From Epilithonimonas mollis (lineage in GTDB: Bacteria > Bacteroidota > Bacteroidia > Flavobacteriales > Weeksellaceae): 64,000 bases of DNA. Positions 3,890-29,924 of the stretch are shown here, in pieces. Where the stretch lies: contig NZ_FRAM01000002.1 in assembly GCF_900142325.1 (NCBI RefSeq), positions 62,001-126,000 of the forward strand, in the 5' to 3' direction. Under the pieces are notes generated by a model. It was not told the origin of the DNA. It saw nothing but the letters and a program-made list of their open reading frames with translations, and ran no database searches. The first letter of the stretch is position 1. Every line of letters begins with the position of its first letter. Position numbers and translations under genes: made by a program.

Positions 3890-3916
3890 AAGCCTTGAAA
3901 AATTCAAGGCTTTTTT
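3888..3916 (+). terminator. Rho-independent terminator after the GNAT gene
   Basis: A nine-pair stem (AGCCTTGAA at 3891-3899 with TTCAAGGCT at 3903-3911) has a three-base loop and is followed by a run of T. It begins at the GNAT stop codon. Confidence 0.85.
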
Positions 3917-5300: not shown

Positions 5301-5314
5301 TAAACCCAAAAGAA

Positions 5315-8300
5315 ATGAAGTTAACAGAACTGGCGATCAAACGCCCCATATTATTTATTGTCTTTTACCTGATCATAGCAGGTCTGGGTATATTGGGATA
5401 TAGCAAACTCCGCTATGAACTATTGCCCGAACTGGCAACCCCCGTCGTTACGGTAACAGCCGTATATCCGGGAGGAGCACCGAGTGAAATAGAAAACACG
5501 GTATCCAAAAAATTGGAAGACGCCATATCCGGCGTAAACAAGATAAAAAGGGTCAGCACTTATTCTGCCGAAAACTCTGCGGTCGTATCCATTGAGTTTG
5601 TTGCCGATGCTGATCCCGAAAAAGCGATTCAGGATGTACAGCGGGCGATAAACAAAGTACTCCCTGAACTCCCTGCTGCCGTAAAATCACCCACTATTGA
5701 AAGTTACAGTATCAACGATGAGCCTGTACTAAGAATAGGAACTACTGCGAATATTCCTGAAGCACAGTTGTACGAGATGCTGGATAAGCAGATCAGACAG
5801 GGTATTTCACAGATCAACAATGTAGGGCGTGTTACGCTTCTTGGTGGTTCTCCAAGGGAAGTTAAAGTTGCCGCAGACCTTGAAAAGCTGAGGGCCTATG
5901 GCATTGGCATGGATGAGCTTGCACAGGCTATCCAAAGCAGTAATGTCGAGATACCCATTGGTGCGGTAAAATCAAAAGACGGCGAATTTGACGTGCGTAC
6001 CACAGGTAAAGCAACGGACTTCGAGCAACTTCGTATGCAACCCGTACGTGTCCAGCCGGATGGCAGTACCATATTCGTAAAAGATGTCGCCAATATAACA
6101 GAAGGACAAAAGGAGGCTACGGTCATGAACCGTGTAAACGGCAAGAACTCCATCGCCCTGCTGGTCAACAAGCAGACCGGGGCAAATGCCGTGGAAGCCG
6201 CAAAACTGGTACGGGAACATCTGACAGAACTGGAATCCCTGCACAGCAACATCGGGCTTAAGTTTTCTGTTATTTCCGATTCATCGGAATTTACACTCAA
6301 AGCGGCTAATTCCGTGTACTTTGATTTCTTTTTGGCGGTATTGCTCGTGGCACTTGTTATGCTGGTGTTCCTGCACAGTCTGCGAAATGCAATCACCGTA
6401 CTGATCGCTATTCCAACCTCCCTGTTGGTTGCTTTCATCATGATGTTCGCTATGGATTACTCCCTGAACCTGATGACGCTTCTCGCTATGTCTCTTGTGA
6501 TCGGGATTCTGGTGGACGACTCCATTGTGGTGCTGGAAAATATCTACCGTCACATGGAAATGGGATCTGAAAGAGTGAAAGCATCCCTTGACGGTCGTAC
6601 AGAGATTGGTTTTGCTGCGATGTCCATTACACTGGTGGACGTAGTGGTATTCCTGCCCCTTGCTTTTGTGCCGGGGCTTGTAGGTAGCCTTGTTAAAGAA
6701 TTCGCTTTAGTCATCGTGGTTTCCACACTGTCCAGCTTAATGGTGTCTTTCACTTTGACACCGATGATATCGTCACGTTTTGCGAAACTTACCCATCTGG
6801 ACGGAAAGACTATCTTCTCCCGTTTTGCGATGTTCTTTGAGAAACAGATTGCGAAGCTGACCGATCTTTACGAAAGGATACTGGCATGGTCACTTGTTAA
6901 TAAATGGAAAACTGTCGGTATTTCCGCTGCTTTCCTGATCGCTTCACTAAGCCTGCTGTTCACAGGGCATGTAGGTAGCGAGTTTGTTCCCGCTACGGAT
7001 AAGGGTGAGCTTTCGCTGATGGTCACAGCCCCTCCGGGTACACGTATCCAGGAAATGGATCGCATTGTCAAATCTATTGAACAGAGAGTGAATGAAGTGC
7101 CGGAAGTTACTAATCAGTTTACGCTTGTCGGTTATCAAAGTGATGGCTCAGGGGAGAACCGTGGCGGTAACGTGGCAAGTATAAACATATCGCTCGTTGA
7201 AGCTAAAGACAGAAGTAAATCCATTTCAGAAATAGGACGGGAACTTAAAAAAATCGCCTTGCTGGAAGCGGGTGTGAAAGTCGATGTTTCCACTGTAGGT
7301 CTCTTCGGAACCAATGCCGCTCCGATACAGCTACTGTTGCACGGAGAGAACAGAGATACTGTATTTGCAACCGCAAGACGACTTTTGGAAGATATCAGGA
7401 AAGTGGACGGTATCGTTGCTCCAAAGCTCTCTGTAGAGGATGAGAAACCGTCGTTACAGGTAAATATAGACCGTAAAAAACTCGGTGACCTCGGTCTGAC
7501 CGTAGAGGGGATCAGTACGGCACTGCGTATAGCCGTGAACGGTTACGAAGATATGAAATATACAAAGGACGGTACAGAGATCGATATGCGTATCTCCCTG
7601 CGTGAACAGGACAAAGCGACCACAAGCAATATTGAAAATTTCCCGTTCGTTAACGCTCAGGGTCAGATGATATACCTCAAACAGTTTGCGGATGTCCGTT
7701 TAGCCACCGCACCATCTATGCTCGAAAGAAGAAATAAACAGTCCGCAGTGATGCTGATGGCAAAGGTAACCGGCAGACCTACCGGAGATATCGGCGAGGA
7801 CATCAAGGCTATCGTAGCTAAAAATCCGCTACCTGCATCCGTTACGCTTCGTTATGAGGGCGACCTCGATTTGCAGGATGATGCTTTCGGAAGCCTTGCC
7901 GTGGCACTGGTTATGTCACTCTGCCTGATCTACCTGATCATGGTCGCATTGTATAACAACTGGGCATACCCGTTTGTCGTATTGTTCTCCATTCCGGTAG
8001 GTGTCGGAGGTTCCGTGGTCGCTTTAGCTTTAGCTGGAAATTCACTGAATATCTTTTCCATATTCGGATTGATCATGATGATGGGGCTTGTGGCGAAGAA
8101 TGCCATCTTGTTGGTCGACAGGGCAAACGAACGACTTGCCGAGGGAGATTCTCTCAGAGCGGCACTTTTGGATGCCGGACGTACAAGGTTGAGACCGATC
8201 CTGATGACCACGCTGGCAATGGTAATTGGCATGCTACCACTGGCATTGTCAAAAGGGGCATCTTCGGAAATGATCAGCAGTCTGGCATGGGTACTTATAG

Positions 8301-9778: not shown

Positions 9779-9821
9779 AACCGGACTCATTAATACGATA
9801 AAAAACGATAACATTTAAAAT

Positions 9822-10331
9822 ATGACAAAAAGAATCGTAATGCTGTTAACACTTGCAGGGCTGGCTTTTACGGCGTGTCAAAACAATAAGAAACCGGACA
9901 ACGAGAATGCTTTGAAAGATGCTGTAAATACAACGGACACGGTGTTAAATACAGCAGACATTGCTTTCACATTAGCTAAAAACTATTTTGTAAATAATAC
10001 AGTAACAAAACTGGAGCATCCCAGAATTGAAACACAGGAACAGTTTAATGAAATTTTTGGAATGGCGGCTCACATGGGAAATGATGGAAAGCCTACCGTT
10101 ATTGATTTTTCCAAACAAAATGTATTGGCGGTTGTGCTTCCGGAAACGGACAGGGAGACGAAAATATACCCTGTAAGTTTACAGAGAGATGAAAACGGCG
10201 AAATCCTGCTGACCTATGGGGTAAAGGTGGGCGAAAAACAGACCCATACAACAAGACCGAATCTTGCGGTGATTATTGCCAAGTCGGAAAAGGGAAACGT
10301 CCGTTTAAATGAAATAAAACTCTTGAAATAA
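9822..10331 (+). CDS. Predicted lipoprotein with PrcB-like C-terminal region
   Basis: The 169-residue product starts with a lipoprotein signal peptide whose lipobox is LAFTAC, so Cys19 is probably lipidated. The mature part is polar, and the segment from about residue 80 (PTVIDFSKQNVLAVVLPET) to the end (RPNLAVIIAKSEKGNVRLNEI) resembles the small beta-rich PrcB_C fold; that resemblance is from memory and weak. The gene lies 43 bases after the pump gene and 22 before the next, so it is probably part of the efflux operon. Its function is unknown. Confidence 0.7.
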   Translation: MTKRIVMLLTLAGLAFTACQNNKKPDNENALKDAVNTTDTVLNTADIAFTLAKNYFVNNTVTKLEHPRIETQEQFNEIFGMAAHMGNDGKPTVIDFSKQNVLAVVLPETDRETKIYPVSLQRDENGEILLTYGVKVGEKQTHTTRPNLAVIIAKSEKGNVRLNEIKLLK

Positions 10332-10353
10332 TTTATAACAAAAATAATAAAAC

Positions 10354-10764
10354 ATGAAAAATCTATTTTTAAGTTTTGCACTGCTGCTTATAGCATCGTT
10401 CACCTATGCACAGGAAATAAAAGGAAAATGGCTGACAGACGACGGTGAAGCCATTGTAGAAATTTATCAGTCGGGAGACAAGTTCAATGGTAAGATCGTA
10501 TGGCTGAAAGATGCCAATGATGCACAGGGCAAACCATTGACCGATCAGGAAAACCCGGACAAGTCCAAACGTAGCAAACCTCTTATCGGACTGCTTATGT
10601 TAACGGACTTTAAGCAGAACAACGGAAAATGGGAAGGTGGCAAAATCTATGATCCATCGGAAGGAAAGACCTATAAATGTACCATGTGGCTTGAAAATGG
10701 CAAGCTAAAGGTGCGGGGCTATGTCGGCATGTTCTACCAGACACAAACGTGGACACGAAAATAG
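10354..10764 (+). CDS. DUF2147 family secreted protein
   Basis: The 136-residue product has a signal peptide ending at SFTYA-QEIKG and then a DUF2147 domain. Typical features are the opening GKWLTDDGEAIVEIYQ, the central KIYDPSEGKTYKCTM and the closing GMFYQTQTWTR. The family is periplasmic or exported, with a lipocalin-like barrel, and has no assigned reaction. It is within the efflux operon and precedes the sensor kinase gene, so a role in envelope maintenance is a reasonable guess. Confidence 0.88.
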   Translation: MKNLFLSFALLLIASFTYAQEIKGKWLTDDGEAIVEIYQSGDKFNGKIVWLKDANDAQGKPLTDQENPDKSKRSKPLIGLLMLTDFKQNNGKWEGGKIYDPSEGKTYKCTMWLENGKLKVRGYVGMFYQTQTWTRK

Positions 10765-10831
10765 CAGGTGAATGTTAATTGCTAATGCATATCACGGTCA
10801 GCTCAACGATAATGTTTAAATTCGTACTGTT

Positions 10832-11857
10832 ATGACATTTCAAAAAAAGGGATTTAAGTTTATCGGTTACTTTATCATCGGAGTAGTGTTCTATGGAATG
10901 CTGCTCCTGATAAACCCGTGGGATTATCCGCTCACAAAAGAGTTCGTGCTCGAAGTGCTCCGTGATCTGGCGGTGACTTTCATCGGTGTGTTGACCATAA
11001 TGGAAAGCAGTTTTTGGGTCAGCAAAAAGCTGGATAAACATTTCCCGTGGCGTTCTGCACTTACCAAAAGGATTTTTATTCAGATCGGTATATTGATGGT
11101 TATCGTCAGTTCCGTACTGTTTCTTTCACGGCTGTTGATCCCCGATGCATACTATGATGAAACAACGGTTCGGCAGGTATTTGTAACCGGAACAGTTATG
11201 TGCATACTTTTTTCTGCGGTATTTACGGCTGCTTCGTTCTTCATCCAATGGAATACGGCGACGGTCACGCTGGCGAAGTATGAAGAAAAAGTGGCTAAGG
11301 CAGAACTGGAATTTTTGAAAATGCAGATAGATCCTCATTTTCTCTTTAATAATTTCAGTACGCTTACTTCCCTGATAGAAGAGGATTCACAGTTGGCGGT
11401 TGAATATGTACAGCAACTTTCAAATATCTACAGGCACGTACTGAAAGACAAAGAACACCATGTAGTTCCGCTGAAAGAGGAACTGGAATTTATACGTTCT
11501 TATCTGTTTCTGTACGAAGCAAGGTATCAGGAAAGTCTGATGGTGAAAATTGATATACCGGACAGCCTTATGAACAAAGGCATTGCCACGGCAACCATGC
11601 AGTTATTGGTTGAAAATGCTATCAAACACAATTCGATCAGCAGGCAAAGCCCTTTAAAAATAGAAATACTTGCTGACCAGGACGGTATCGTAATAAAGAA
11701 CAACATTAACCCTGTGACTACCCAAAGAGCCAGCAAAGGCATTGGTTTGAAAAATATAACAGAAAGGTATCAGCTTCTCGGAAACGAAGTGGTTTCGATA
11801 AAGCACGATGATGATTTCTTTTGGGTGAGGGTTCCATTTTTAGAACTTAAGCGATGA
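10832..11857 (+). CDS. LytS/YehU-type sensor histidine kinase
   Basis: This membrane sensor kinase belongs to the His_kinase (PF06580) group. The first 150 residues contain about four membrane segments and no obvious periplasmic domain. The phosphoacceptor is His in MQIDPHFLFNNFSTLTSL near residue 170. The ATP-binding domain carries the N-box QLLVENAIKHN and the G-box SKGIGLKNITERYQLLG. The stop overlaps the start of the response regulator by four bases (ATGA), so the two are translationally coupled and form a two-component system. What it senses is unknown; envelope stress or pump substrates would fit the operon. Confidence 0.92.
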   Translation: MTFQKKGFKFIGYFIIGVVFYGMLLLINPWDYPLTKEFVLEVLRDLAVTFIGVLTIMESSFWVSKKLDKHFPWRSALTKRIFIQIGILMVIVSSVLFLSRLLIPDAYYDETTVRQVFVTGTVMCILFSAVFTAASFFIQWNTATVTLAKYEEKVAKAELEFLKMQIDPHFLFNNFSTLTSLIEEDSQLAVEYVQQLSNIYRHVLKDKEHHVVPLKEELEFIRSYLFLYEARYQESLMVKIDIPDSLMNKGIATATMQLLVENAIKHNSISRQSPLKIEILADQDGIVIKNNINPVTTQRASKGIGLKNITERYQLLGNEVVSIKHDDDFFWVRVPFLELKR

Positions 11858-12612
11858 TAAAAGCAATAATAATTGAGGATGAACTGTTGACAGCCAACCG
11901 ACTGAAACGGCTTATTTCAAAGGTTCGGGAAGACATTGAAATCGTGGCTATATTACACACGGTTAAGGAAACGCTGGAATGGCTCTCCGCTAACGATGAG
12001 CCGGATCTGTATTTCATGGACATTCAGTTGTCGGATGGTCTCAGCTTTGACATTTTTTCCGAATTTGATATTCAGAAGCCCGTCATTTTTACCACGGCTT
12101 ACGACGAATATGCGATCAAGGCATTCAAAGCAAATGGCATCGATTATTTGCTAAAACCCGTAGCGATAGAAGATATTAAGCAAAGCCTGATGAGGTATCG
12201 TCAGTTGAATCCGGTAACTGCTATCCCCGATCTTCAACTTCTCCTTAAAGATATTTCAGCGAACCCAACGAGGTTTAAGAACAATTTTCTGATAGAGTGG
12301 AGAGACAGGTTACTGACGATCTCTAAAGATGAGGTCGCCTATTTTCAGCTCTCCAATAAATTAACGCATCTGGTTACGCTGGATAATAAGCCCCATGTGC
12401 TTTCCTCCACGTTAGACTTGCTGGAAAAAGAGGTTGACCCTTATACCTTTTTTCGGATAAACCGTCAGTTCATCGTTTCAAGAAAATGTATACGGCAGAT
12501 ACATATTTATTTTGGCAACCGTCTTAAGCTCGTGCTTTCCCCTCAGCCTGATGAAGATGTCATTGTGAGCAGAGACCGTGTACCTGACTTTAAAGCCTGG
12601 CTGGATAGTTGA
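11854..12612 (+). CDS. LytTR-family response regulator
   Basis: The product has 252 residues: a receiver domain with acidic pocket EDE near residue 8, phosphoacceptor Asp in DLYFMDIQLSDG near residue 56 and Lys in YLLKPV near 106, then a LytTR DNA-binding domain from about residue 145 (RDRLLTISKDEVAYFQLSNK) to the end. LytTR proteins bind pairs of direct repeats spaced about two helical turns apart. It is coupled to the kinase upstream and precedes the PagL-like gene, so that gene and the efflux operon are likely targets, but I found no clear LytTR site in this operon. Confidence 0.93.
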   Translation: MIKAIIIEDELLTANRLKRLISKVREDIEIVAILHTVKETLEWLSANDEPDLYFMDIQLSDGLSFDIFSEFDIQKPVIFTTAYDEYAIKAFKANGIDYLLKPVAIEDIKQSLMRYRQLNPVTAIPDLQLLLKDISANPTRFKNNFLIEWRDRLLTISKDEVAYFQLSNKLTHLVTLDNKPHVLSSTLDLLEKEVDPYTFFRINRQFIVSRKCIRQIHIYFGNRLKLVLSPQPDEDVIVSRDRVPDFKAWLDS

Positions 12613-17367: not shown

Positions 17368-17398
17368 AAAAAGGGAGCTTATAAAAAGCCCCTTTTAT
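17368..17398. terminator. Bidirectional terminator between the VOC and helicase genes
   Basis: AAAAGGG-A-GCTT pairs with AAGC-CCCTTTT around an ATAA loop, with one bulged A. The hairpin is flanked by A-rich and T-rich runs, so it can stop transcripts from both strands, and it overlaps the helicase stop codon at 17395. Confidence 0.75.
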
Positions 17399-20300
17399 AA
17401 TACCCCTCTTGGTAAATGAATGCCTTTTGTTCGCACAATACTTTCCGAAACCTTTGGTGTTTCTTGCTGTTTTTCAGTTTGTTCTTCGGGTTCGTCGTGT
17501 GTTTTGGGCTTGATAGATAACTGTATTTTCCGCTCAACAGAAGCCAGCTCGGTTTTAAGTTCGTTCAATCGGTTCTCTTTACTCCACGTACCGTTCAACA
17601 CTTCATGAAGAACAGGTAAATCCTTTTTAATTTCGGCTATTCTCTTTTGTTCCTGTTCAATGTAGGAAGGTAGTTTTTCCAGTGCATTAAGGAAATTCAT
17701 AGATGCCAGCTTCTCATCTTTGGCAAGGATACCGTTGTTGTAGGTATATTTGATATTTCCCTCGCCCTGTATCAAAAATCGGTTTACCCGAATATCCGCA
17801 CCGTCCTTTTGCGACATTTCCGTTTTTACCAAAAGCTGAAAACCGTAGAGGCTTCCGATTTCCTCATAATCCCCCCCTGTACGGGATTTGTCCGCAAGCT
17901 GATTGAGCTTTGTACCGATTTGTTTTGTATCCGCATTTGGCGACAAGCCGTCCAGCTTAATAAGGTTAGCAACAGTACCATCCGACAGTTTTTGAATACG
18001 CCCTTGCAGGTTATTCCAGTCAAGGCTCATACGGTCAAATCGGGATTGGGTTCTGTCGAGTTCTGCCGTATAGTCTTCCAATTTATATTTGGCACTCGAT
18101 TTTGAACGGTTGAACGATTGCCTTTCGCTTTCCAGTCCGGCAATCTGTTTTTCTATTTTAGCTTTGTCCAACAGGTCGGTATTGCCCATAAGAATAGCCA
18201 CGTATTCTGAGAAGTTCATGCCCGATTTTTCGTCCATACTGCCCTCGTCAATCGTCCGTTTGCCGAGATTATTGGATTTTAACTGGTCGATAAATAGCTG
18301 TTTGTTGTACAGCAGGTTGAACTTGTAACTGTCCAACGATTTTTCTACTGCATAAATAATGACATCCACTTTATTGTTGTTAAAATGTTTGGCTATTTCA
18401 TTGCCTTTTCGGATAGCCCGACCATCCCTTTGGGCAAGGTCGGACGGTCGCCAAGGCGTATCCAGATGATGTACGGCAACGGCTCTTTTCTGTGCATTGA
18501 CACCTGTACCGAGCATACTCGTAGAACCGAACAACACACGGATTTTACCGCTGTTCATTCCTTGTATAAGTTCTTTGCGTTGCTTGTCATTTTTCGCTTC
18601 CTGTATAAAGCGGATTTCGTGTGCAGGTATGCCGTGGTCTTCCGCCAACTTGCGTTTGATTTCGGAGTAGATATTCCATTGGTTCGGTTTGTATGTTCCC
18701 AAATCCGAAAACACGAATTGCGTTCCTTTCTGTGCATTGAATTTGTGGTAATACTTAGCGATATTATTCGCACAATGCGTAGCCTTGTTGTCGGGGTGGT
18801 CTTGGTAATGAGGGCTTACCATCCGCATATCCAAAGACATCTTACGGGCGTAATCCGTAGCGATGAGCATTTTTGCTTTTTCCTCTTTTTTAGATAAAGG
18901 TTCTCTGCCCAATAATTCGCCTTTGCCTGTTTTGGCAAACTCCATCAGCTTTTCGATAAATTGCTCCTGGTCTGGCGTAGGCGGTATGTTATAAAACACC
19001 TCGTTCTTTTCTGGGCGGTCAATACCAATCATTTCCGCAGTACGGTAATCCGTGATTTCGGAATAGAATTGAGCCAGTTCCGGTACTTTGATAAAGTATC
19101 GGAAACGCTCTTTTGCCACGATATTATTAGCTACCGAAAATTCATAATCGGTCGTTTTCTTTGCATAAATCGCTGCCCACGCATCAAAGGAGTTAATACC
19201 CTGTTTTGCCAATGCTCTTGGTCGCAGGTATTTAAAGAGCAGGTACAGTTCGGTAAGCGAATTGCTTATGGTAGTTCCCGACAGGAAAGTTGCCCCCATA
19301 TCCGCATCAATACGCTCCTGTATGGTACGGATAGCAAACAGCAGGTTCAGTGCCTTTTGGCTTCCCTGTTGATTGCCCAATCCCGCAACCCTCGAATGCC
19401 TTGTGTTGAACATCAGGTTTTTGAATTGGTGGCTTTCGTCTACAAACAAATGGTCTATACCCATCATTTTGAAATCTACAATGTCATCTTTGCGGTTTTC
19501 AATATCGTGTTGCAGCGTTTTGAGCTTTACTTCGAGGTTTTCCTTTTGTTTTTCCGCTCCGGCAAGCATACCTCTGGTTACTTCATCTCCTTGACTACGC
19601 AAAACATCAAGATTTTCTTCTACGCTGTCTAATTCGATTTGCAGGATTTCCTTTTGTATTTCGGGTGATTGCGGTATCATCCCGAATTGGTCGTGTGTGA
19701 GTATCACACAATCCCACTCGTTGTTTTTAATATCACCGAAAATCCGCAGACGTTTTTCGGGCGTAAAGTCATCAATGCCCGGATAGAGGATTTTGGCGTG
19801 GGGATAAGCGGTGCGGTAGGCTTCGGCAATTTCGGGTACATTGGCTTTCAGTCCGATAATCATCGGTTTGTGTGCCAAGCCCAAACGCTTCATTTCCTGT
19901 GCTCCCGTACACATTATCAACGTCTTTCCTGCACCTACTTCGTGGTCGCAGATAGCACCGTTGTTGAGCTTTATCATCCAGACCGCATCCTTTTGGCTCG
20001 AATACAGGTCGTCAATCTCCAATCCCTTTCGGTCTAATCCCGGAAACTCCTGATGTGAGCCGTCGTAGTTCGGGCGGACAAAACAGTTAAAGGTGTCGTT
20101 GTATTGGTCGGTCAGCCTTTTTTTGAACACATCGTTTTGGGCGTGAAGCCAATCGGTAAAGGCAGTTCGGATTTCGTCAATCCTGGTATTCGCCATTTGT
20201 ATGGCTTCCATATCCCTTACCTTAACATCTTTGCCATCTACCTGTACTGTTTTAGAAATATCGGGCGTGGTATTGATGAGGGCGTGTTTGAGCAGGGCAA

Positions 20301-22839
20301 TTCCGTCATACGTCCGGCTTTTGGCTTTGACCGCATATTTATCCCAAATGTGTACGTTCTTTTGCTTACAGGTTACGGAGAAATCGTCGGCACTATCGGA
20401 GTAATGGATACGGACTTCTGTATCGAAAAGGTGCGATGCAAACCGGGCATAAATGCCTGCGGGTATCCAGCGTTCGCCGAGATTAAAATCGAGTTCCTCA
20501 AATTCGATACGTCTTGGTCTTGCTTCCTCTAATACGGTAAGGCTTTCTTTGGCTTGGGCATCATCGGGATTGTTTTCGAGGTGGGCTCTGACCTCTTGTG
20601 CTTTCTCCACAACGTTGCCCGCAACCCAACGTTCAGCAATTTCATATTCCTTTTCGAGCGGATTGTAATAAATACGACCGTGCAGGGCTTCCCTCAAAGC
20701 ATCAGCAGGCATATTGCTGATTTCGGACATATAGCCCAGATCCACGCTCCCGTATTTGTTCAGCGAAGCGGATAACGCTTCTTCGGGATTGTCGGTTGTT
20801 ATGGTTACAGTTGAGAAACTTACAGGACGACTGAAAATATCCGATTTATGAATAATACCGCCTTTTACACGCTCCAAATAAGGTATTTCCTTTCCGGCAC
20901 TATCTGTTTTTATCAACTTGATGTTATCGGCATTGTTAAGGTTCCCGTACCGCTTCACAAAGGCATCGTAAAGACGGTTAAGAGTTTCCCTTTCTTTTTT
21001 ATGCTCGATCTGTTGTTCTGCTTCTTTGGTGTATAGCAGTTGATAAACATCACGCACCCCGATATACGCTTCGGCTCTTGCTTTCTGTAAAGGCGGCAAT
21101 TGCAAGGGGTGGAAAACAGCCGTACCGTCTTTTGCCTCTACTTCTTGCAGATGACCCACCCAGCCATTATCCACGACAAGGCAGTCGTTTCGGTGGAATG
21201 CTTGCAGTTCGCCACTGTACGGAGCAGGTTCGGGGATGGTGTTGATTGCTATGTCGGGATCGGCTGGCTTATCAGCGTGGCCATTCCCGCCAACTTGTGA
21301 AAACAAGTCGCCGATTATTTCCTGTCCGGTGTTGTTCGGTCGAGTGTTTCTCTTTACTGTACCGTTTGAAGCAGGAGGCGTGTAAGATTGTTGCATTGTA
21401 CCGCTGAACAGGTCGGTTTGCCGACCCATAGGAGCACGCCTGCTTTTTACTGTCTTTCTTTTACTCTGGGTAGTTTTCTTTGGTGGAGCAAGAACCGCTA
21501 CGGGTTCCCCTGCATTCTCAAACAAATCGAAAATGCTCAGTTGCTTTAATTCCTGTGGACTTTCCTGAACGGTTGCAGGTGGAATATTTCGTTGTTTAGG
21601 TGGTTCCGTCTGAACTGTTAAAGGTTCGGCAACCGGAGGTGCGACTGTCGGGGTAATTGGTATTGGTGTGATGGGGTCATCGTTCCGTTTGCCTTTGTAT
21701 AAACCTAAATCCAAATATTTTCCAAAATCATCGGAAAGCATTTGATTGAGGTCTTTTGCTATGCCCTCAATACCCCCTTTGTGAGTATAGATGAGAGCAG
21801 GTTGTCCGTAAGGATCGGTGTCTATTTTTTTGTCGGTATGAACCACCCTGTCGAGATCTCCCAATAATACGTTAGTTGAGAAGTTTTCCGCTGTTATGTA
21901 TGTGCCGCAGAACTTATTTTCTCTCCAGGAATTTTTTTGTTTTTGTATATCTTTTTGTAATATGATTAAATCACTTCCAACCTCTGTACCTGCATAATCC
22001 GTAAACAGGTTATTCGGCAATCGAATAGCCGAAACCAGATTGTTGTTTTCCATTAACGCCCTGCGTATTGGCTCATTCTTTGGACTGTTCAGAATACCCT
22101 GAGAAGTAATAAACACCTGTAAACCGCCCTCACGAAGCATGTCATTTCCTTTTAAGAAGAAATAATTGTGGATGCTGCGGGCAGCCTGTACTTTTGCGGG
22201 GTCTTTGCTTCGGGAAAACGACAGATCAAATACCGAAGTATCCCCAAAAGGGATATTGCTTGCAATTACAGCATACGAGCCTTGCTCTTTTTCAGGTATC
22301 TCTTCAAATCCGCTAATGCGGATAGTGCTTTCAGGATAAAGGTGCTTTAATATTTTGCCTGTGAGCAAATCCTTTTCATAAGCAGTAACTTTAGCCTCCC
22401 GGTTCTCTGCAAATGATTGTATAAAGGAGCCGATACCTGCGGAGGGTTCGAGGAATGTATCAATATTAAGACCGCTATTCCTCAATGTCGAAGCAATCGT
22501 ATCTATGACCTGTGGTGGTGTATAAAAAGCAGTCAGTACCGAGCTTTTCATACTATCTACATACCGACGGTATTGCTTATCGTCTTCGGAATTTTCTTTG
22601 AGCAGTTTATGGAGTTCCTGTGTTATCGGAAAAAGATCATGTTCGGTTTTTCGCCAATGATTGATGTCTATTTCATTCGCTATGGGATTCAACACGAATT
22701 TAAGACCGCCAAATCCGCTGTAACGCTTCATTAGCAGTCTTTCCTCTGCGGTGGCTTGTCGTCTTTCCTTTTCTAATGTAAAAGCAATCCGCAGGGCTTC
22801 GATGTTGTGCTGGAGGTGTTGCCTTTTACTGAAGCCCAT
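17395..22839 (-). CDS. Giant N6-adenine methylase and SNF2-like helicase fusion protein
   Basis: The product has 1814 residues. An N-terminal methyltransferase has the SAM motif [10 protein letters not shown] near residue 130 and a catalytic-type motif NIPFG near 195 (the usual form is NPPF/Y). A proline- and glutamine-rich linker covers about residues 395-520. The superfamily 2 helicase core has HEVGAGKT near 968, VDESHQF near 1134, [10 protein letters not shown] after it and [12 protein letters not shown] near 1473, and the C-terminus is coiled coil. Homologues are conserved in Bacteroidota ICEs, and the architecture recalls the phage P1 defence protein DarB; protection of transferred DNA from restriction is inference. 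Its start overlaps the DUF1896 stop by 14 bases. Confidence 0.9.
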
Positions 22840-23263
22840 TTTCCTCTATCCATATTGCGATAGTTCCCGTCAGTTCGGTATAGAGGACATCAAACTCATA
22901 ACCGTAAGCGAAATCATCTGTCAGTTTATATTTGGCAAAAACAGGCTCACAGACGGGAAACATTTTGAAGGCGAACGGTCGCAGTTCCTCGTCTGCCATA
23001 AGGGTATCAAACTCATTGCAGACCACTTGAAAAATGGTATCGAATTTGGAGAAATGCAGGTTTTCAAACAGAATGTAATTGGCTATCTCATTGCATTGGT
23101 CGATAGCGTTGCCGGAGCGGAACGCTCCCTCATAAGCATTCGCTGCCCACGAGGAACGCTGGTCGATAAATTTTTGATCGTTGGCTTTTTCGGGAAAGCT
23201 CGAATTAAGATGCTCTTGCAGTCGTAAACGGAAATACGACAAGTCTTTTTGCTGTGTACTCAT
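22826..23263 (-). CDS. DUF1896 family protein
   Basis: The 145-residue soluble, acidic product starts [20 protein letters not shown] and matches DUF1896, a family found next to the large methylase-helicase in Bacteroidota mobile elements. No catalytic motif is visible. The overlap with the helicase gene suggests a co-translated partner. A phased repeat array lies 71 to 104 bases upstream. Confidence 0.85.
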
Positions 23264-23296: not shown

Positions 23297-23367
23297 TAAA
23301 ATTAGAGTAGAGATCAAGAGCCTTTGAAGATGTGGCAGGGTTTGGCTTTGAGAGGCAGGATTTGTCG
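23297..23367 (-). promoter_or_regulatory. Phased GCC array and -7-like box upstream of DUF1896-helicase
   Basis: On the plus strand GGC occurs at 23334, 23344 and 23354 and GTC at 23364, exactly 10 bp apart. Read on the minus strand, 29 bases follow the last GCC and then comes TAATTTTA (23304 to 23297), a 7/8 match to TAnnTTTG. The same layout occurs at 28087-28156. The array is also 70 bases upstream of the divergent histone gene, so it could serve both. Confidence 0.5.
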
Positions 23368-23620: not shown

Positions 23621-23645
23621 CCCTCTGAAATTTCAGAGGGTTTAT
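23621..23645. terminator. Terminator after the histone-like gene
   Basis: CCCTCTGAAA and TTTCAGAGGG (23621-23640) form a perfect palindromic stem with A-rich and T-rich flanks. It separates the converging histone-like and ORF6N genes and can work in both directions. Confidence 0.88.
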
Positions 23646-24523
23646 TATTCGTTCAGAAGTTGAAGCATCCTGCCGACTTCTATATCCATTCTGGAAAAAG
23701 CAAACCATTTTTTGCCCAGGTCTTTTAGCGAAGCTCCAATATGATACAGTTGCGTCTGGTCTATGATCAAAAATCGGTCATGGGCATCGGAGAAAATCTC
23801 AATTTCAATCGGGGGATATTGGCTGTTGTATCGTTGTAAGTCCAGCCTTAACTGATTGCTGATATTTTTGGTGTAGATTTTTGCTGTTACGTTATCCTTA
23901 CGTTTGCCCAACAAGGTCAGCACTGTATCATCTGTGTAATTATCGAGCAGGATAATTGATTTATCGGCACTTCGGATAATGTCTGATACAAAGGTATAGG
24001 CATCAAAGACCTGTCCATTGTAAAAGATACCTTTTTCGCTATGGAGCTTGTCACTTTCCAAAGCCTTAAAGATTTCTTCAAATTTTTGATCGGCTTCTAA
24101 TTGCTTTAATTCAATATTATCCAAACGATGGAATAAAGAAGCATTGCTAATAAGCATTCTACGCATTTCTACAAATGCTTCCATAATTTCTACACTGACT
24201 TTGACAGCAACATCAGAACGAAGTATAGCAGAAGCCATTGCAACCCCTTGTTCGGTAAAAACATAGGGCAGGTAACGCCGTCCACCGTAACTCAAACTTG
24301 AGGTTCCAATTTGGAACCTCAAGTCTTCAACTTCCTTATCGGTCAGTTGAAAACAAAAAGAAGCAGGAAACCGCTCAATATTTCTTTTTACGGCTTTGTT
24401 GAGGTTCTTTGTTTCCACTTGGTATAAAGAAGCGAGATCGCTGTCCAACATCACTTGCTTGTCACGTATGGTATAAATCAGATTTTTGATTTCTTTAGGT
24501 ACAATAGTCTGTTTATTTTCCAT
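23645..24523 (-). CDS. ORF6N domain protein with PLD-like C-terminal domain
   Basis: The product has 292 residues from the ATG at 24523; a longer frame to 24571 lies inside the topoisomerase gene. Residues about 8-95 are an ORF6N domain (IYTIRDKQVMLDSDLASLYQ, then RRYLPYVFTEQGVAMASAIL), a DNA-binding module of phage and mobile-element regulators. The C-terminal half (VFDAYTFVSDIIRSADKSII, then HDRFLIIDQTQLYHIGASLK) resembles a phospholipase D-like fold with a single degenerate HxR motif, so nuclease activity is doubtful. The start overlaps the topoisomerase stop by 11 bases, so it is translated from the same messenger. Confidence 0.85.
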   Translation of the reverse strand: MENKQTIVPKEIKNLIYTIRDKQVMLDSDLASLYQVETKNLNKAVKRNIERFPASFCFQLTDKEVEDLRFQIGTSSLSYGGRRYLPYVFTEQGVAMASAILRSDVAVKVSVEIMEAFVEMRRMLISNASLFHRLDNIELKQLEADQKFEEIFKALESDKLHSEKGIFYNGQVFDAYTFVSDIIRSADKSIILLDNYTDDTVLTLLGKRKDNVTAKIYTKNISNQLRLDLQRYNSQYPPIEIEIFSDAHDRFLIIDQTQLYHIGASLKDLGKKWFAFSRMDIEVGRMLQLLNE

Positions 24524-26606
24524 TTCGTTTATTGCTTTTCTTGTTCTCAAACTCAAACGAACTCTCGGCATTTTCTTTTAGCACGATGTAAGCATCGAAT
24601 TTCTTTCCGGCTTTGCTTTTCATTCCTTTGATTAACGAGGTTTTGCCTTTATTGACAAGGCTCGTTATATCATCTATCCCGATTTGCACTCCACATACAT
24701 TGCGGAACTGCACCCAGCTACAATTTTCGTCAGGACATTTGACAATCTTGTCACGGATAATGAGTTGCCGGGTTTTACATTTCGGGCAGGCAAGTTGGGG
24801 TAGGTTCCCGTTGGCAATGGAGGTTTGTAACAATTCATCCGTGATGGATTTGGCATAAGTTTCCATCTCCCTCTGAAATACCCTTGCATCTACTTCGTTG
24901 TTTTCAATTTTCTGTAATGCTAATTCCCATTCGGCAGTCATCGCTACATCTGCAATTTTACGGTCTTTGACCAATTCATAAACCTGTAATCCTTTTTCGG
25001 TCGGGATTAAAGATTTCTTTTCCCTTTGGATATAATTGCGGGTAAACAAGGTTTCGATTATTGCGGCTCTTGTCGCAGGCGTACCGATGCCGATATTTTG
25101 CAGGGCTTTCCGTTCTTCTTCATTTTCTATTTCCTTACCAGCGGTTTCCATAGCTGACAAAAGTCCGGCTTCGGTATAAAGCACAGGTGGTTTGGTTTTC
25201 TTCTCCAAAACGGAGGCTTCTTTTATTTTTAGTTCATCGCCCTTTTTAAGTTCGGGCAAATCCTGTATCGGTTCGGTGTCTTCATCCATAAAATTGCCTT
25301 TTATGGAACGCCAACCTGCATCCAGGATCTTACATCCTTTCAGCGTAAAATCATAGTGTGAAACTTCCAATGCTATATCGGTTATCTCTTTGACACAGGC
25401 TTGCGAAATGGCTTCGAGCAAGCGAAAGGCAATCATGTTATAGACTTTTGTTTCGTCTGCGTTGAGTGCGGACGGGATTTTATCAGTAATCAACAATCCA
25501 TGATGGTCAGTAACACGGAGATCATTTACAATCCGTTTATTGAAACGACCCCATTTCATTTTGGCTATGGCTTGTTTAAAATTTTCGTTGTCCTGCAAGG
25601 CTCTTACGAGATTGGGAATCTCACTCCACATATCTTCAGGGATGTATTTGCTTCCTGTACGTGGGTAGGTGATGAATTTCTTTTCATAAAGGCTTTGAGC
25701 GATGTTCAGGGTTTGTTCGGCAGACAGGTTCAGCTTTTTGTTTGCTTCCTTTTGCAAGCCTGTAAGGTCAAAAAGCAAAGGTGGTTGCTCCGTTGCGTTT
25801 TTGCTTTCCACAGCTACAACCGTAGCAGTGCCGTGTCTTCCGATTAACCGCAATGTATCATTTGCGAGCTTTTGGTCTTCCCATTTGGTTTTAGAAATGC
25901 TTTTAAAATCTATATCCTCTTTTCGGTGCAACAACTGTATTTGCCAATATTTCTTTACCGTAAAATTCTTGTTTTCCAAATAGCGTTTACAAATTAACGC
26001 CAATGTAGGTGTCTGCACTCTGCCGAGTGAATAAATGCCGTTGCCTGCGGCTATGCTCAATGCTTGTGTGGCATTGATACCTACCAACCAATCGGCACGG
26101 CTTCTGCCTTGTGCTGCCTGATACAATCCGTCAAATTCTTTTCCGTCTTTCAGTTTCTCAAAGCCTTGTTTGATGGCTCTTTCGGTAAGCGAGCTTATCC
26201 ACAGCCGTTCAAAGGGTTTACGGCATTTCAGGTGTTCATAAATGTATCTAAAAATAAGTTCGCCCTCACGCCCTGCATCGGTCGCAACGACAATGCTATC
26301 ACTACGTTGAAAAAGTTGTTCGATAACTTTTAGTTGTTTCAATGCTCCTGTATCGGCTGTATAGCCTTTGTTCTTTTTGACTTTTCGGACAGTCAAAATA
26401 AACGGATTGGGGAGTATCGGCAATGATGCCTGATCAAACCCCGAAATTCCGTAATCTTCGGGCATTCCCAATCCGACCAAATGTCCGAATGCCCACGTAA
26501 CAAAATAGCCATTCCCTATAAGGTAGCCGTCCTTTTTTTCGGATGCTCCCAACAGGCTGGCTATTTCTTTTGCTACGCTTGGTTTTTCTGCTATAACTGT
26601 TTTCAT
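24513..26606 (-). CDS. topB: Type IA DNA topoisomerase III (Exc-like)
   Basis: The product has 697 residues. An N-terminal TOPRIM domain (MKTVIAEKPSVAKEIASLLG, with acidic residues in ATDAGREGELIF) is followed by the topoisomerase core with active-site Tyr in KKFITYPRTGSKYI near residue 312. The C-terminal zinc-finger-like CPKCKTRQ...CPDENC follows near 610-640. In CTnDOT the exc gene of the excision operon encodes such a topoisomerase, and gene order here is the same. It starts two bases after the DUF3945 stop. Intact and probably active. Confidence 0.95.
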   Translation of the reverse strand: MKTVIAEKPSVAKEIASLLGASEKKDGYLIGNGYFVTWAFGHLVGLGMPEDYGISGFDQASLPILPNPFILTVRKVKKNKGYTADTGALKQLKVIEQLFQRSDSIVVATDAGREGELIFRYIYEHLKCRKPFERLWISSLTERAIKQGFEKLKDGKEFDGLYQAAQGRSRADWLVGINATQALSIAAGNGIYSLGRVQTPTLALICKRYLENKNFTVKKYWQIQLLHRKEDIDFKSISKTKWEDQKLANDTLRLIGRHGTATVVAVESKNATEQPPLLFDLTGLQKEANKKLNLSAEQTLNIAQSLYEKKFITYPRTGSKYIPEDMWSEIPNLVRALQDNENFKQAIAKMKWGRFNKRIVNDLRVTDHHGLLITDKIPSALNADETKVYNMIAFRLLEAISQACVKEITDIALEVSHYDFTLKGCKILDAGWRSIKGNFMDEDTEPIQDLPELKKGDELKIKEASVLEKKTKPPVLYTEAGLLSAMETAGKEIENEEERKALQNIGIGTPATRAAIIETLFTRNYIQREKKSLIPTEKGLQVYELVKDRKIADVAMTAEWELALQKIENNEVDARVFQREMETYAKSITDELLQTSIANGNLPQLACPKCKTRQLIIRDKIVKCPDENCSWVQFRNVCGVQIGIDDITSLVNKGKTSLIKGMKSKAGKKFDAYIVLKENAESSFEFENKKSNKRNGK

Positions 26607-26608
26607 AA

Positions 26609-28066
26609 CTAACTAACTTTTCTACCTCTTGATTTTGCAGGCTTGTTTTGTTGCTCCTGCTGTTTTTCATTTTTAGGTCTTTGTTGCCCGGACTTCAAAG
26701 GCTCTTTGATGTTTTTGGTCGCTTCGTTGGTTTTACCCTGCGAATTGACGGCAGTTTGCGTTTTGTGGGCTTCGGTAGGTTGCATTCTTTCTTTATATTG
26801 ATTTGGAAACTCAAAGCCAGTTTTTCCGGTGTCTTTGTTGAACGTGATGTAACCGTTATACGTTTGCCCTTTCTTATCGACCAGACCTGCCATATACACG
26901 GTTTGACCCGCTTTGAAATCCTTATACTGCTCATCGGTCAGTTCCTTACCCCGAAATGTTTTTGGGGCTTCCTGTGGTTGGCTTTGCTGATTGTTTTGTT
27001 GGTTATTTTGCTTTTGTCCGTTGGAGTTACTACGGTCAAACAAAAATTCAGTATAGCGTTTATCAGCATTGTACTGTACGGTTGCCGAGAACTCCGTTCC
27101 TTTTGTGGAAATCATCCCCTCCAATTTGAGCGGTTTGCCCTCCATTAAGGTTTGCTTTTGCTCATCGTTCAGTTTTACCCCCTTAATTTCATCGGGAATT
27201 TTAATGAAATCTGTTCGCAGGGCAATTACATCATTGGTAAGCCTGTCAATACTGATAATAGACGGCATTAGTTCGCCTGTTTTAGAATTGATTAGATTAA
27301 CCACACGCCCCATGTTACCTGTTTCGAGCAGGTTTTTCTTATCCTCATCTGTAAACTTGTGTCCGAAGAACTCAAAATGCAGATTAGGTTCTTTTTTGAT
27401 ACCGTGTATTGCCACGATAGCATTTCCGTCTTCGCCTTGCTGTAAAGACAGGCGGGCATCTGTGCGGAGGATGGAACCGCCGAGATTGATGCCTATTGGC
27501 ACAAGTTCGTTGGTTTTATAACCTCTTAGCAAAGGATCGAGCAGGTTTCTTTTTTCAAGATATTCCTTACTCAATCCGATATTTTTCATTGTATCCCAAT
27601 CGATCTGCTCCGGCTTGTAGCGGTATTCGCTTGTTTCCGGTGTTGTTTGTGCTGTTGCCATATCATTTTTATTTTCTTGTTTATTATTCTCTTGTATGTC
27701 GGTTTTTACTTCGTGTTCTTTCATCATCTTTTCGCCCTCCGGAGTGGGCTTGTCAACCTGCTTCTGCATTTCCTTTGCCTTTTCAATAGCTTCGGGTTCA
27801 GCAACTTTAAAAAATGAAAAGTTGGTTGGATTTTTCAGTTGACTGAAAAAGTTAGAGAAGAAATTAGAGAAGAAATCGCCATGCTTATCCACACGCATAA
27901 ATTGATTTTGATTCTTTTTCGTGGGGTCTACGGTTTCCATTTTTCCGTTTTCGTCAATGCTCTTTACGGCTTGGATTTTCATTTTTTCTTTATCCAGCAC
28001 TAACAATATGTCCGATAACTGTTCGGGCATTTCCTGCTTGTTTGTTATTTCTTCGCTCATAATCAT
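26609..28066 (-). CDS. DUF4099/DUF3945 domain protein (orf3-like of the excision operon)
   Basis: The product has 485 residues; ATG codons at 28066 and 28060 are both possible starts. The first 110 residues (LVLDKEKMKIQAVKSIDENG) look like DUF4099. After a charged linker, residues about 150-400 carry repeated DUF3945 units, for example ELVPIGINLGGSILRTDARL, then LNDEQKQTLMEGKPLKLEGM and LTDEQYKDFKAGQTVYMAGL. The tail is rich in Gln and Lys. It occupies the position of orf3 between xis2d and exc in CTnDOT. Its function is unknown; a partner of the topoisomerase is plausible from the two-base gap. Confidence 0.88.
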   Translation of the reverse strand: MIMSEEITNKQEMPEQLSDILLVLDKEKMKIQAVKSIDENGKMETVDPTKKNQNQFMRVDKHGDFFSNFFSNFFSQLKNPTNFSFFKVAEPEAIEKAKEMQKQVDKPTPEGEKMMKEHEVKTDIQENNKQENKNDMATAQTTPETSEYRYKPEQIDWDTMKNIGLSKEYLEKRNLLDPLLRGYKTNELVPIGINLGGSILRTDARLSLQQGEDGNAIVAIHGIKKEPNLHFEFFGHKFTDEDKKNLLETGNMGRVVNLINSKTGELMPSIISIDRLTNDVIALRTDFIKIPDEIKGVKLNDEQKQTLMEGKPLKLEGMISTKGTEFSATVQYNADKRYTEFLFDRSNSNGQKQNNQQNNQQSQPQEAPKTFRGKELTDEQYKDFKAGQTVYMAGLVDKKGQTYNGYITFNKDTGKTGFEFPNQYKERMQPTEAHKTQTAVNSQGKTNEATKNIKEPLKSGQQRPKNEKQQEQQNKPAKSRGRKVS

Positions 28067-28086: not shown

Positions 28087-28156
28087 CGAAAGTAAAGGAA
28101 GCGTTCACTGACTTGCCCGATGTGGCACTCAAAGGCAGTATTTGTCGCTCATTGGC
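28087..28156 (-). promoter_or_regulatory. Phased GCC array and -7-like box upstream of DUF3945-topoisomerase
   Basis: On the plus strand GGC lies at 28124, 28134 and 28154, with GTC at 28144: a strict 10-bp period. On the minus strand the last GCC is followed by 29 bases and then TACTTTCG (28094 to 28087), a 7/8 match to TAnnTTTG. This falls in the 93-bp gap between the second helix-turn-helix gene and DUF3945, so the topoisomerase can be transcribed separately from the xis genes. Confidence 0.55.
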
Positions 28157-28159: not shown

Positions 28160-28453
28160 CTATTTGTTCGCAGGAGGGTTAAAGCTCTCCCTGATGAACT
28201 GATGCACATCGGACAGCTTGTAATACAGCTTTCCGCTTATTGTGTAATAGGGTAGCTTTCCAATGGAGCGATACCGTTGTAGAGAGCGGTTGCTTATTTT
28301 CAGCATTTGCAGTAAGTCTTGATTATCCAGCAATTCTTCGCCATCAATGCTGTTTCGTTTCTTTTGCAAGTCGTCTATATTGTCGCTCAGCATATCGAAC
28401 CTGTCCATTATACGTTCCATCCACGACAAAAATTCCATTCTATCAATATTCAT
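28160..28453 (-). CDS. Small helix-turn-helix protein (Xis2d-like)
   Basis: The product has 97 residues. The C-terminal half carries a MerR/excisionase-type winged helix: LLDNQDLLQMLKISNRSLQRYR followed by the wing GKLPYYTISGKLYYKLSDV. The N-terminal half is helical and may dimerise. It is the second of two tandem genes between rteC and DUF3945, the place of xis2d in CTnDOT, where it is a recombination directionality factor. The assignment rests on fold and position, not on close sequence match. Confidence 0.82.
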   Translation of the reverse strand: MNIDRMEFLSWMERIMDRFDMLSDNIDDLQKKRNSIDGEELLDNQDLLQMLKISNRSLQRYRSIGKLPYYTISGKLYYKLSDVHQFIRESFNPPANK

Positions 28454-28464: not shown

Positions 28465-28818
28465 TTAAAGTTTGTCGGATTTTATTTTTCTACCTTTTTC
28501 GATATAGCTTTTGCCCTTTTCCATAAGTTGTTGTACATACTCGTCACTACTCTGTATGGCATTGGCATTGAGCATATCCTTAATTGCTCCGATGGTATAG
28601 AAATATTGTCCATAGATTTTTGAATACGCTATCTCGCTTTTATTACGCATACGCCACAAAGTCTTTTCGCTGATGTGCAGATATTGGCATACCTCGTGGT
28701 TATTGAGCCACAGATCGTCATAGCTTGTGTCTTCCAATCTTTTCAGATAATCAGCAATAGCGTTGATACGGCTATTTAGATTTTTCCACGCTTCTTCTTC
28801 TATAGTTATGATTTTCAT
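28465..28818 (-). CDS. Small helix-turn-helix protein (Xis2c-like)
   Basis: The product has 117 residues. The central part (DLWLNNHEVCQYLHISEKTL, WRMRNKSEIAYSKIYGQYFY) is an excisionase-type helix-turn-helix with wing. The position as first gene of the excision operon matches xis2c of CTnDOT. The next gene starts 11 bases after its stop, so the pair is one unit. Upstream it has both a short phased GCC array (28851-28873) and the direct repeats at 28882 and 28992. Confidence 0.82.
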   Translation of the reverse strand: MKIITIEEEAWKNLNSRINAIADYLKRLEDTSYDDLWLNNHEVCQYLHISEKTLWRMRNKSEIAYSKIYGQYFYTIGAIKDMLNANAIQSSDEYVQQLMEKGKSYIEKGRKIKSDKL

Positions 28819-28849
28819 TGCATAGCTTTTTAAAGTTCACTATGCAAAA

Positions 28850-28874
28850 TTGCCAAAGGTGGCAGTGTTTGTCC
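28850..28874 (-). promoter_or_regulatory. Short copy of the phased GCC motif upstream of the xis genes
   Basis: GGCAGTGTTTGTC here matches GGCAGTATTTGTC at 28134-28146 and GGCAGGATTTGTC at 23354-23366. TGC, GGC and GTC lie at 28851, 28861 and 28871, again 10 bp apart. The following -7 box is poor (TAAAAAGC, 28 bases after the GCC). Confidence 0.45.
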
Positions 28875-28881
28875 GCCAACC

Positions 28882-29019
28882 TTCGCCAATTGGTTTGGGC
28901 ATTTTTTGAAAATTTTTACAATTGAAAAAAAAACTTATCAGATAAGGGTTTTAAGGGATTTTAAATGTTTCGTCAACGGATTCAACCACCGTTCGCCAAT
29001 TGGTGTATATTGGCAAATG
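28882..29019. repeat. Repeated TTCGCCAATTGGT sites upstream of the excision operon
   Basis: TTCGCCAATTGGT occurs at 28882-28894 and 28992-29004. Each contains the palindrome CCAATTGG. The second also pairs with ATTGGCAAA (29009-29017) as an inverted repeat. They lie between rteC and the first Xis-like gene, where RteC would be expected to bind by analogy with CTnDOT. Binding is inference. Confidence 0.5.
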
Positions 29020-29078: not shown

Positions 29079-29924
29079 CTAAAGGTCTTTATCCATATAT
29101 TCTTCCAATGAGTTTTTGAGCTGGTCTAAAAATGCAGTTCGGGAACCGCTTCGGGTTTTCATTCTGTGGAAAGCGTGATGTATATCGTTTAGCGGTGTTT
29201 GGAATAAAACCTGAAATATCAAGGCTAATTTTTTGATACCGATTTTTCCGTAGCTAACAGAATTTGAGGCATAGATAGCGTATATAAGCTCAATAAGTGC
29301 GTTTTGCGAGTTCGTCCAAGAAATATCCATGTTGGCATCTCCACTTATCAAAACCATTTCGGGATTTTCTTCGGGATTGATTTTAGTAAGTAGATAATTA
29401 TACAGTAATTCATTTGCAATAATATGGGCAACCCGATTGTCATAATACGTTGAGAAATTAAGGTCAATTTCAAAGACACCGCTATTTAACCCATCGTGGT
29501 AGTTGATTTGTCCGAGCCTGAAATAAGTATGGTCACGGTCTGTTCTCCCTGCACGGTAATACTTGTAAAAATCCGTATTACAGATACTATCCTTGTATTC
29601 GGATTTGAGATTTTTTAATTCATTTTCAAAATAGGCATAATACATTTTGCCGTTGCTGACAGGGCAGGTCGTTTCAATACGGAATACCTTGTTATAATAA
29701 ATGAGCTTTCCTAATATCTCTGGTTTGATATTCTTGAAAAAGTCAACCTCCTGTTGTTCATCCTTAAATCCAGTTTGTAAGACTGAAGATTTTACAGAAC
29801 ACAGCATTTCTCTTAGGAATATGGTCATTTCATAAGCCTCTTCCGATGTTCGCATCATTTGAGAAGATACTTTGTCTTCCTGATGCCGAATTTGCAATAA
29901 TATTTTGCTCAACGTAATTTCCAT
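29079..29924 (-). CDS. rteC: RteC family regulator of the excision operon
   Basis: The product has 281 residues with the RteC blocks KLIYYNKVFRIETTCP, DFYKYYRAGRTDRDH and SQNALIELIYAIYASNSVSY, and a C-terminal region ending SRTAFLDQLKNSLEEYMDKD. In CTnDOT, RteC binds upstream of the excision operon and activates it; here the gene lies directly upstream of the Xis-like genes in the same direction, which fits. It has its own terminator, so the operon must have a separate promoter in 28819-29030. It is the last recognisable ICE gene on the right. Confidence 0.9.
   Translation of the reverse strand: MEITLSKILLQIRHQEDKVSSQMMRTSEEAYEMTIFLREMLCSVKSSVLQTGFKDEQQEVDFFKNIKPEILGKLIYYNKVFRIETTCPVSNGKMYYAYFENELKNLKSEYKDSICNTDFYKYYRAGRTDRDHTYFRLGQINYHDGLNSGVFEIDLNFSTYYDNRVAHIIANELLYNYLLTKINPEENPEMVLISGDANMDISWTNSQNALIELIYAIYASNSVSYGKIGIKKLALIFQVLFQTPLNDIHHAFHRMKTRSGSRTAFLDQLKNSLEEYMDKDL

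Follow-up and report, generated by a model that had tools for sequence, protein, structure and literature searches.

Upstream of different genes of a CTnDOT-like conjugative element, and in other elements as well, GCC-type cores are repeated with a 10-bp period, in one phase and at a characteristic spacing from a -7-like promoter box. This operator-like system is real and extends a known control circuit, that of CTnDOT. The phased repeats are probably a docking strip for an element-encoded helix-turn-helix protein that switches the genes on jointly, and we consider it likely that the arrays are operators at which a head-to-tail oligomer of a Xis2d-type HTH_17 protein, similar to BldC and RdfS, activates promoters that have no -33 element.

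The window, i.e., the whole stretch of 64,000 nucleotides analysed here (C5:62001-126000), comes from a 3.7-Mb genome in 13 contigs, and its DNA is part of a CTnDOT-like conjugative element (rteC, two HTH_17 genes, orf3, topoisomerase III). According to Pfam, the minus-strand gene order from 29924 down to 22826 is rteC, HTH_17, HTH_17, orf3 (DUF4099/DUF3945), topoisomerase III, an ORF6N gene, and DUF1896. We apply the names xis2c, xis2d, and exc on the basis of gene position and established nomenclature. Contig C4 of the same genome bears another copy of the element, with an orf3 90% identical. The features of the window are as follows.

29079-29924, minus strand: RteC homologue, presumably the switch acting upstream (Pfam RteC, 3.3e-71).
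28851-28873, minus strand: short copy of the array before the xis2c-like gene, with GAC, GCC, and GCA at 10-bp steps, adjoining the inverted repeat TTGGC(A/G)GACAAACACTGCCA (read directly).
28465-28818, minus strand: HTH_17 protein in the xis2c position, a possible partner of the operator-binding protein (Pfam HTH_17, 4.3e-9; model resembles BldC).
28160-28453, minus strand: HTH_17 protein in the xis2d position, the favoured candidate for the operator binder (Pfam HTH_17, 3.1e-9; CTn214-like gene order; included in the BldC-matching profile).
28124-28156, minus strand: putative orf3 operator, four cores at 10-bp steps, GCCAATGAGC GACAAATACT GCCTTTGAGT GCC (read directly; pattern search).
28087-28094, minus strand: -7-like box TACTTTCG, 29 bp past the last core of the orf3 array (read directly; offset 29 is first of 33 in the orf3 class).
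26609-28066, minus strand: orf3 homologue (DUF4099/DUF3945), downstream of the orf3 operator (Pfam).
24513-26606, minus strand: topoisomerase III homologue in the exc position (Pfam).
23334-23366, minus strand: putative DUF1896 operator, GACAAATCCT GCCTCTCAAA GCCAAACCCT GCC (read directly; pattern search).
23297-23304, minus strand: -7-like box TAATTTTA, 29 bp past the last core of the DUF1896 array (read directly; class statistics).
22826-23263, minus strand: DUF1896 gene, downstream of the DUF1896 operator (Pfam).
937-969, plus strand: putative TraG operator, absent from the first-pass annotation, GCCAAACACC GCCACGCACC GCCATTGAGT GCC (pattern search).
999-1006, plus strand: -7-like box TAAATTCA, 29 bp past the last core of the TraG array (read directly; class statistics).
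1032-3029, plus strand: TraG/coupling protein (YWFCY, TraG-D_C, T4SS-DNA_transf; Pfam).

Direct reading bore out the positions that the first-pass annotation had given for the phased cores (GGC at 28124, 28134, and 28154 with GTC at 28144; GGC at 23334, 23344, and 23354 with GTC at 23364), as well as the 29 bases that separate, on the gene strand, the last GCC from TACTTTCG (28094-28087) or TAATTTTA (23304-23297). The boxes, described there as matches to TAnnTTTG, are present, but TAATTTTA is imperfect, with five of the six fixed letters; TAAATTCA at the TraG site has four of six. The shorter copy at 28851-28873 does exist (TGC at 28851, GGC at 28861, GTC at 28871), but it does not obey the 29-bp rule: a box was sought at this distance, and none was found. 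Nor do all sites serve minus-strand genes, as had been claimed, since the TraG site serves a plus-strand gene. The region upstream of xis2c (28846-29015) also contains the above inverted repeat, kept in many relatives, and two copies of TTCGCCAATTGG approximately 110 bp apart, all of which are candidate sites for RteC or for autoregulation.

The pattern GGCN7GGCN7GKC has five, partly overlapping, matches in the window, compared to a mean of 0.16 (maximum two) in 100 dinucleotide-preserving shuffles. In the whole genome, the three-unit pattern yields 22 matches, 15 of them in two related conjugative elements and seven elsewhere; its reversed control yields ten. Outside the window, arrays of the same element are found in the mob-tra region, preceding the tra operon (C5:59489), before an int-proximal HTH_17 pair (C5:44232), and inside a traC-like gene (C5:57367).

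The period was analyzed at 80 orf3 loci, at least this number coming from named genomes among the matches listed and one having no upstream sequence. With four or more GCC/GAC units required, at least two of them GCC, we counted 74 arrays at period 10, six at period 12, one at period 15, and none at the other 13 periods within 5-20; with at least three units, there are 119 arrays at period 10 and 0-38 at other periods, while the reversed core at period 10 gives 17 (the 80 orf3 loci, among the matches listed). Some three-unit pattern matches, e.g., GGCAATTCTTGGCGTTCCACGGC, recur near-identical in several genomes; they do not look like the arrays and are probably coding sequence.

To anchor promoters, the best four-unit window was scored against GCC, blind to the box, with a threshold of 10 of 12. 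At this threshold, a four-unit array is present in 53 of 60 unique upstream regions of orf3 (among the matches listed), 38 of 44 of DUF1896, 13 of 15 of TraG, 11 of 15 of the mob-tra class, and 22 of 27 of the int-HTH class (from the best 30 loci). No such array was found in 24 out of 161 unique upstream regions (five classes pooled, among the matches listed), which scored below 10 of 12 and were dropped: seven of 60 for orf3, including L083 with a truncated orf3, six of 44 for DUF1896, two of 15 for TraG, four of 15 for mob-tra, and five of 27 for int-HTH. When the gaps between units were allowed to vary, 10/10/10 alone fitted best in 98 of the 140 upstream regions scoring at least 10 and shared first place in a further 35, other gaps being best in seven; 21 regions scored below 10 in this comparison. 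The mobA loci were found independently of the motif (17 regions, including both elements of the host genome; 17 out of 20 mobA matches were used, three weak ones being left out, and two of the 17 have no TraG or ParA match), and they have arrays upstream of TraG as well as in the mob-tra interval. The same is seen at the int-proximal HTH loci, defined as the best 30 matches to the int-proximal HTH gene, own element included. The unit consensus is GCC-WWW-NANT, 10 bp long, with the highest information content in the GCC core (1.56, 1.26, and 1.84 bits), followed by the A/T of position 4 (1.09), one false orf3 upstream region (L063) being included in these rows. As promoters are homologous within a class, independent evidence is counted in classes, not sequences. 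The enrichment of the phased motif upstream of homologous genes in other elements, by which the first-pass annotation proposed to check its claim, was found, together with the 10-bp period and the 29-bp spacing.

Among the matches listed, offset 29 past the last core has the highest mean box score of 33 offsets in all five promoter classes, and a box with at least four of the six letters occurs there in 124 out of 137 anchored promoters, vs. 1.1-8.4% at other offsets. By class, these are 51 of 53 for orf3 (among the matches listed), 31 of 38 for DUF1896, 11 of 13 for TraG, 11 of 11 for mob-tra, and 20 of 22 for int-HTH. The distance from the array to the start codon is variable, e.g., 318-433 for tra. 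The -33 TTG, said by the first-pass annotation to be absent, is indeed not enriched: TTG with a 17-23-bp spacer to the box occurs in 12 of the 137 anchored promoters (among the matches listed), compared to about 10% expected at equal base frequencies. The box is reported at -12 to -5 in Flavobacterium (PMC9723704), which places the last core near -43. An apparent orf3 box at offset 19 was discarded as an artefact of a degenerate GCA following the last GCC; box-blind re-anchoring returned it to 29.

The spacing had been presented as fixed at 29 bp, and this holds for the five classes, with exceptions at other sites and in some elements. In traC-internal sites, offset 28 is the best in 13 out of 15 loci with the gene; in three elements of the distant genomes G746 and G630, the spacing counted by hand is 28 at mob-tra and 39 at orf3; it is 39, i.e., one turn more, in the CTnDOT-type element CTn214 and two related elements; and the xis2c copy is different. 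The proposal of a multimeric activator replacing the -33 contact is favoured by the phased motif, by the fixed spacing, and by the lack of TTG enrichment, but has to accommodate a spacing of 28 or 39 at some sites. The traC-internal layout, a phased array with a TAATTTTG-like box 28 bp downstream, is kept inside the coding region (L024:4921-5553, C5:56921-57553; homologues L159-L175), and is probably an intragenic promoter for later tra genes.

The box position was also assessed in a held-out set of 11 out of 20 loci (L206-L216; the remaining L217-L225, being CTnDOT-type or doubtful, were not used). The 20 candidates had been picked by three-unit pattern matches, so that the presence of an array was selected for, while the box position was not; one locus, L213, closely resembles the main ICE type (MobA 76%, ParA 56%). 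The held-out loci contain 15 unique four-unit arrays, with offset 29 among the best in 13 of them (three of the 13 being ties), and 16 arrays at period 10 vs. 0-1 at each other period from 7 to 15. An HTH_17 pair is present in ten of the 11 loci. In six of these (L207, L209-L212, L214), the pair is accompanied by an integrase, MobA, and MobB, and the queries for TraG, TraN, traC-like genes, and the large tra region found no match; ParA is matched in L213, and both the HTH_17 pair and mob genes are missing from L216. The six mobilizable-type loci, from related genomes, have the operator code in common with conjugative elements, so that helper and passenger elements might cross-activate each other.

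Units tend to alternate in some classes. Identity of the seven nucleotides between cores at lag 20 and lag 10, respectively, is 0.65 and 0.13 for DUF1896, 0.73 and 0.23 for mob-tra, 0.64 and 0.22 for int-HTH, 0.51 and 0.39 for orf3 (with the false L063 row included), and 0.43 and 0.44 for TraG; it is 0.50 and 0.40 in held-out arrays (permutation 0.0025) and 0.46 and 0.42 in distant arrays (permutation 0.16). This weak 20-bp superperiod is suggestive of a filament of two proteins. A different phased repeat, seven tandem 10-bp units resembling TGCACGTTTC, lies approximately 14 kb beyond the integrase of a CTnDOT-like element (L259:16978-17047).

The excision-operon order of the window (two HTH_17 genes, orf3/DUF3945, topoisomerase III) matches that of p214_V8GG_COL1 from Bacteroides fragilis (55.7 kb), which we take to be CTn214, an element of the CTnDOT type, and whose annotated order is HTH, HTH, DUF3945, topoisomerase, DUF1896, N-6 methylase. 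The gene order was compared over 12 kb, a stretch that does not include rteC in CTn214; in the window, rteC adjoins the operon. The ORF6N-domain gene of the window (23645-24571), between the topoisomerase gene and DUF1896, has no annotated counterpart in CTn214, and an 1814-aa protein with N-6 methylase and helicase domains (17395-22839) follows DUF1896, in the place of the CTn214 N-6 methylase gene. By published account, CTn214 is transmitted in almost the same way as CTnDOT (PMC10865816).

The mob-tra stretch of CTn214 (L277) contains an array GCC-GCC-GCA-GCC with a score of 11 of 12, one turn further out from the box (39). Two score-10 matches in this neighbourhood are an out-of-step overlap of the array and a match at 3538 that looks like chance. 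Within 20.4 kb of CTn214 sequence, the search detected no array scoring at least 10 at orf3, DUF1896, or the HTH genes, the orf3/DUF1896 part being covered by positions 1-12000 (L278). The mob-tra array is present in two further Bacteroidota elements (L273, L275), and none was seen in L276. CTnDOT Xis2d is reported to bind the mob-tra region in the title of a paper cited in PMC9956884, which also states that CTnDOT excisionases act as transcription factors. The CTn214 array sits in the very region named for this binding, and so we count it for a Xis2d-type reader; as this binding was already published, mob-tra is not a new target. The likeness to the CTnDOT circuit consists in the gene order and in the mob-tra array of CTn214. 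The differences are that window-type arrays also serve orf3, DUF1896, TraG, the HTH_17 pair, and an intragenic site, and that their spacing is 28-29 bp, compared to 39 in CTnDOT-type elements. To our knowledge, no operator code has been known for the control of CTnDOT excision and transfer, and no description of a phased GCC operator was found in the literature searched.

As for the reader of the arrays, the candidate proteins of the window match only HTH_17 in Pfam, and profile comparison shows them to resemble BldC. When 32 HTH_17 proteins of the elements were combined in a profile, its top PDB matches were the two BldC-DNA structures (E-values 1.6e-4 for 6ama and 7.8e-4), with RdfS ranking fourth (0.15); a profile of six such proteins matched only BldC (two entries) and RdfS, with weak E-values of 0.25-1.6 (0.25 for 6ama). 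The predicted model of Xis2c superposes on BldC chains at 1.5-1.8 A; for RdfS, the Foldseek probability is 1.00 and the superposition 6.8 A, ArsR-type repressors being first by E-value in this search, above RdfS, and no match reaching 0.001. The fold prediction for Xis2d was discarded (mean pLDDT 67, no meaningful PDB match). No relevant structure was retrieved by phmmer with Xis2d alone or with the int-proximal HTH protein alone, the latter giving a weak match to GlnR (E-value 0.11). The recognition helix of Xis2d, RSLQRYR, is conserved in 45 out of 46 distinct proteins (orf3 loci, among the matches listed); the int-proximal proteins have a similar helix, and Xis2c a different one. Residues of the Xis2d helix differ in loci with divergent arrays, but phylogeny confounds this comparison, and we do not claim coevolution of helix and core.

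None of the HTH_17 orthologues was detected in every array-bearing element: the G746 element has detectable xis2c and xis2d and no int-proximal pair, and the mobilizable-type loci show the reverse. In G085, no match to orf3 or xis2d was found at the thresholds used (the other 14 of 15 genomes have both), and its arrays lie in an element with its own HTH_17 pair. In a distant element, with an orf3 34% identical, the cores are GAC at the orf3 site, at the mob-tra site, and at a third site, within an open frame of 352 codons that follows a ParA-like gene, as expected if one element-encoded reader serves all three.

Three known systems invite comparison. BldC of Streptomyces, a MerR-like winged helix without the coiled coil and the top PDB match of our profile, forms a head-to-tail oligomer on direct repeats (PMC5859096). 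Its repeats are 9-bp AATTNNNNC units in varying number; the arrays described here, where binding is inferred, consist instead of 10-bp GCC-WWW-NANT units in groups of about four at a fixed spacing from the promoter. RdfS of ICEMlSym R7A, an excision factor of HTH group 17, occupies 10 bp per protomer and controls excision and transfer, but its binding sites yielded no consensus motif (PMC11963761), whereas the arrays, with their 10-bp period, present an explicit one. Finally, in the SXT/R391 and IncA/C elements, one element-encoded activator, SetCD or AcaCD, acts at many promoters without a -35 box, with sites also in mobilizable islands (PMC4542580), similarly to the system proposed here; these activators are, however, FlhCD-related, use other operators, and belong to another phylum, whereas the candidates here are HTH_17 proteins.

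We infer that HTH_17 proteins bind the arrays, oligomerise there, and activate transcription within an RteC hierarchy. One protomer with a BldC/RdfS-like winged helix would occupy each 10-bp unit, so that a head-to-tail row of about four protomers would cover a single face of the DNA, with the last core approximately 43 bp before the transcription start. The oligomer would stand in for the missing -33 contact and recruit the sigma-A RNA polymerase to the -7 box 29 bp downstream (28-29, or one turn more). Following the hierarchy of CTnDOT, the excision operon would be turned on by RteC, after which Xis2d, possibly together with Xis2c or the int-proximal HTH_17 pair, would activate the orf3-topoisomerase, DUF1896, TraG, and tra promoters, and also the promoter of the HTH_17 pair itself.

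Another regulator, namely RteC, an RteB-like activator, an AraC-type protein, or a host protein, is an unlikely reader of the arrays. RteC controls the excision and transfer genes of CTnDOT (PMC1976400), its gene is present in the window, and homologues were found in L211, L212, and L217, with a fragment in L216; nevertheless, a full-length RteC match is missing from nine of the 11 held-out loci within the stretch fetched. G085, too, has no RteC in its 19-kb locus, but a 39% homologue lies approximately 12.6 kb beyond (L266), so that absence is not proven there. The 10-bp head-to-tail direct repeats match binding of the BldC/RdfS type, and the seven own-genome pattern matches outside the elements do not exceed the ten of the reversed control, which argues against a host regulon. 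Among the regulators listed in the first-pass annotation, the Xis-like HTH_17 proteins fit best.

It is rather improbable that the same HTH_17 proteins use the arrays as operators mainly for repression or autoregulation. An array does precede the int-proximal HTH_17 pair itself, and a partial one precedes xis2c; moreover, RdfS represses its own promoter (PMC11963761). However, in the five classes the box stays uncovered, 29 bp past the end of the array, while a repressor would more often overlap the box or the start, and, given that a -33 element is not enriched, little activity would be expected from these promoters when unaided, which counts against repression. Finally, the sequences are homologous within each class and Xis-type proteins also bind att DNA, yet it is very improbable that the repeats are non-regulatory, be it intergenic sequence kept by homology or a part of the excision or oriT architecture, as promoters of five different genes have a common layout while the class consensus sequences of their 29-bp gaps are 34-52% alike, the held-out set agrees, and one distant element has GAC rather than mostly GCC at all three sites.

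Returning to activation by an HTH_17 oligomer, a broader version of it is possible, though we hold it tentatively: one phased-array code, read by BldC-like excisionase filaments, may be the common switch of many conjugative and mobilizable elements of Bacteroidota. The regulon would then be set by array length, core, and unit order, with the filament replacing the -33 element; mobilizable elements would carry their own reader or answer that of a helper element; and the A-B-A alternation of units would mark a mixed filament of two HTH_17 proteins encoded as adjacent pairs.

Array-bearing elements occur in many genera of Bacteroidota, among the matches listed. The arrays turn a single published binding observation, that of Xis2d at the CTnDOT mob-tra region, into a readable code that predicts which genes are switched together. 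This would explain the coupling of excision and transfer through the excisionase and provide a natural system for studying promoter activation by a direct-repeat filament where a -33 element is lacking. The code would also be a tag for finding dependent mobilizable elements, as the SetCD and AcaCD motifs are reported to be elsewhere (PMC4542580).
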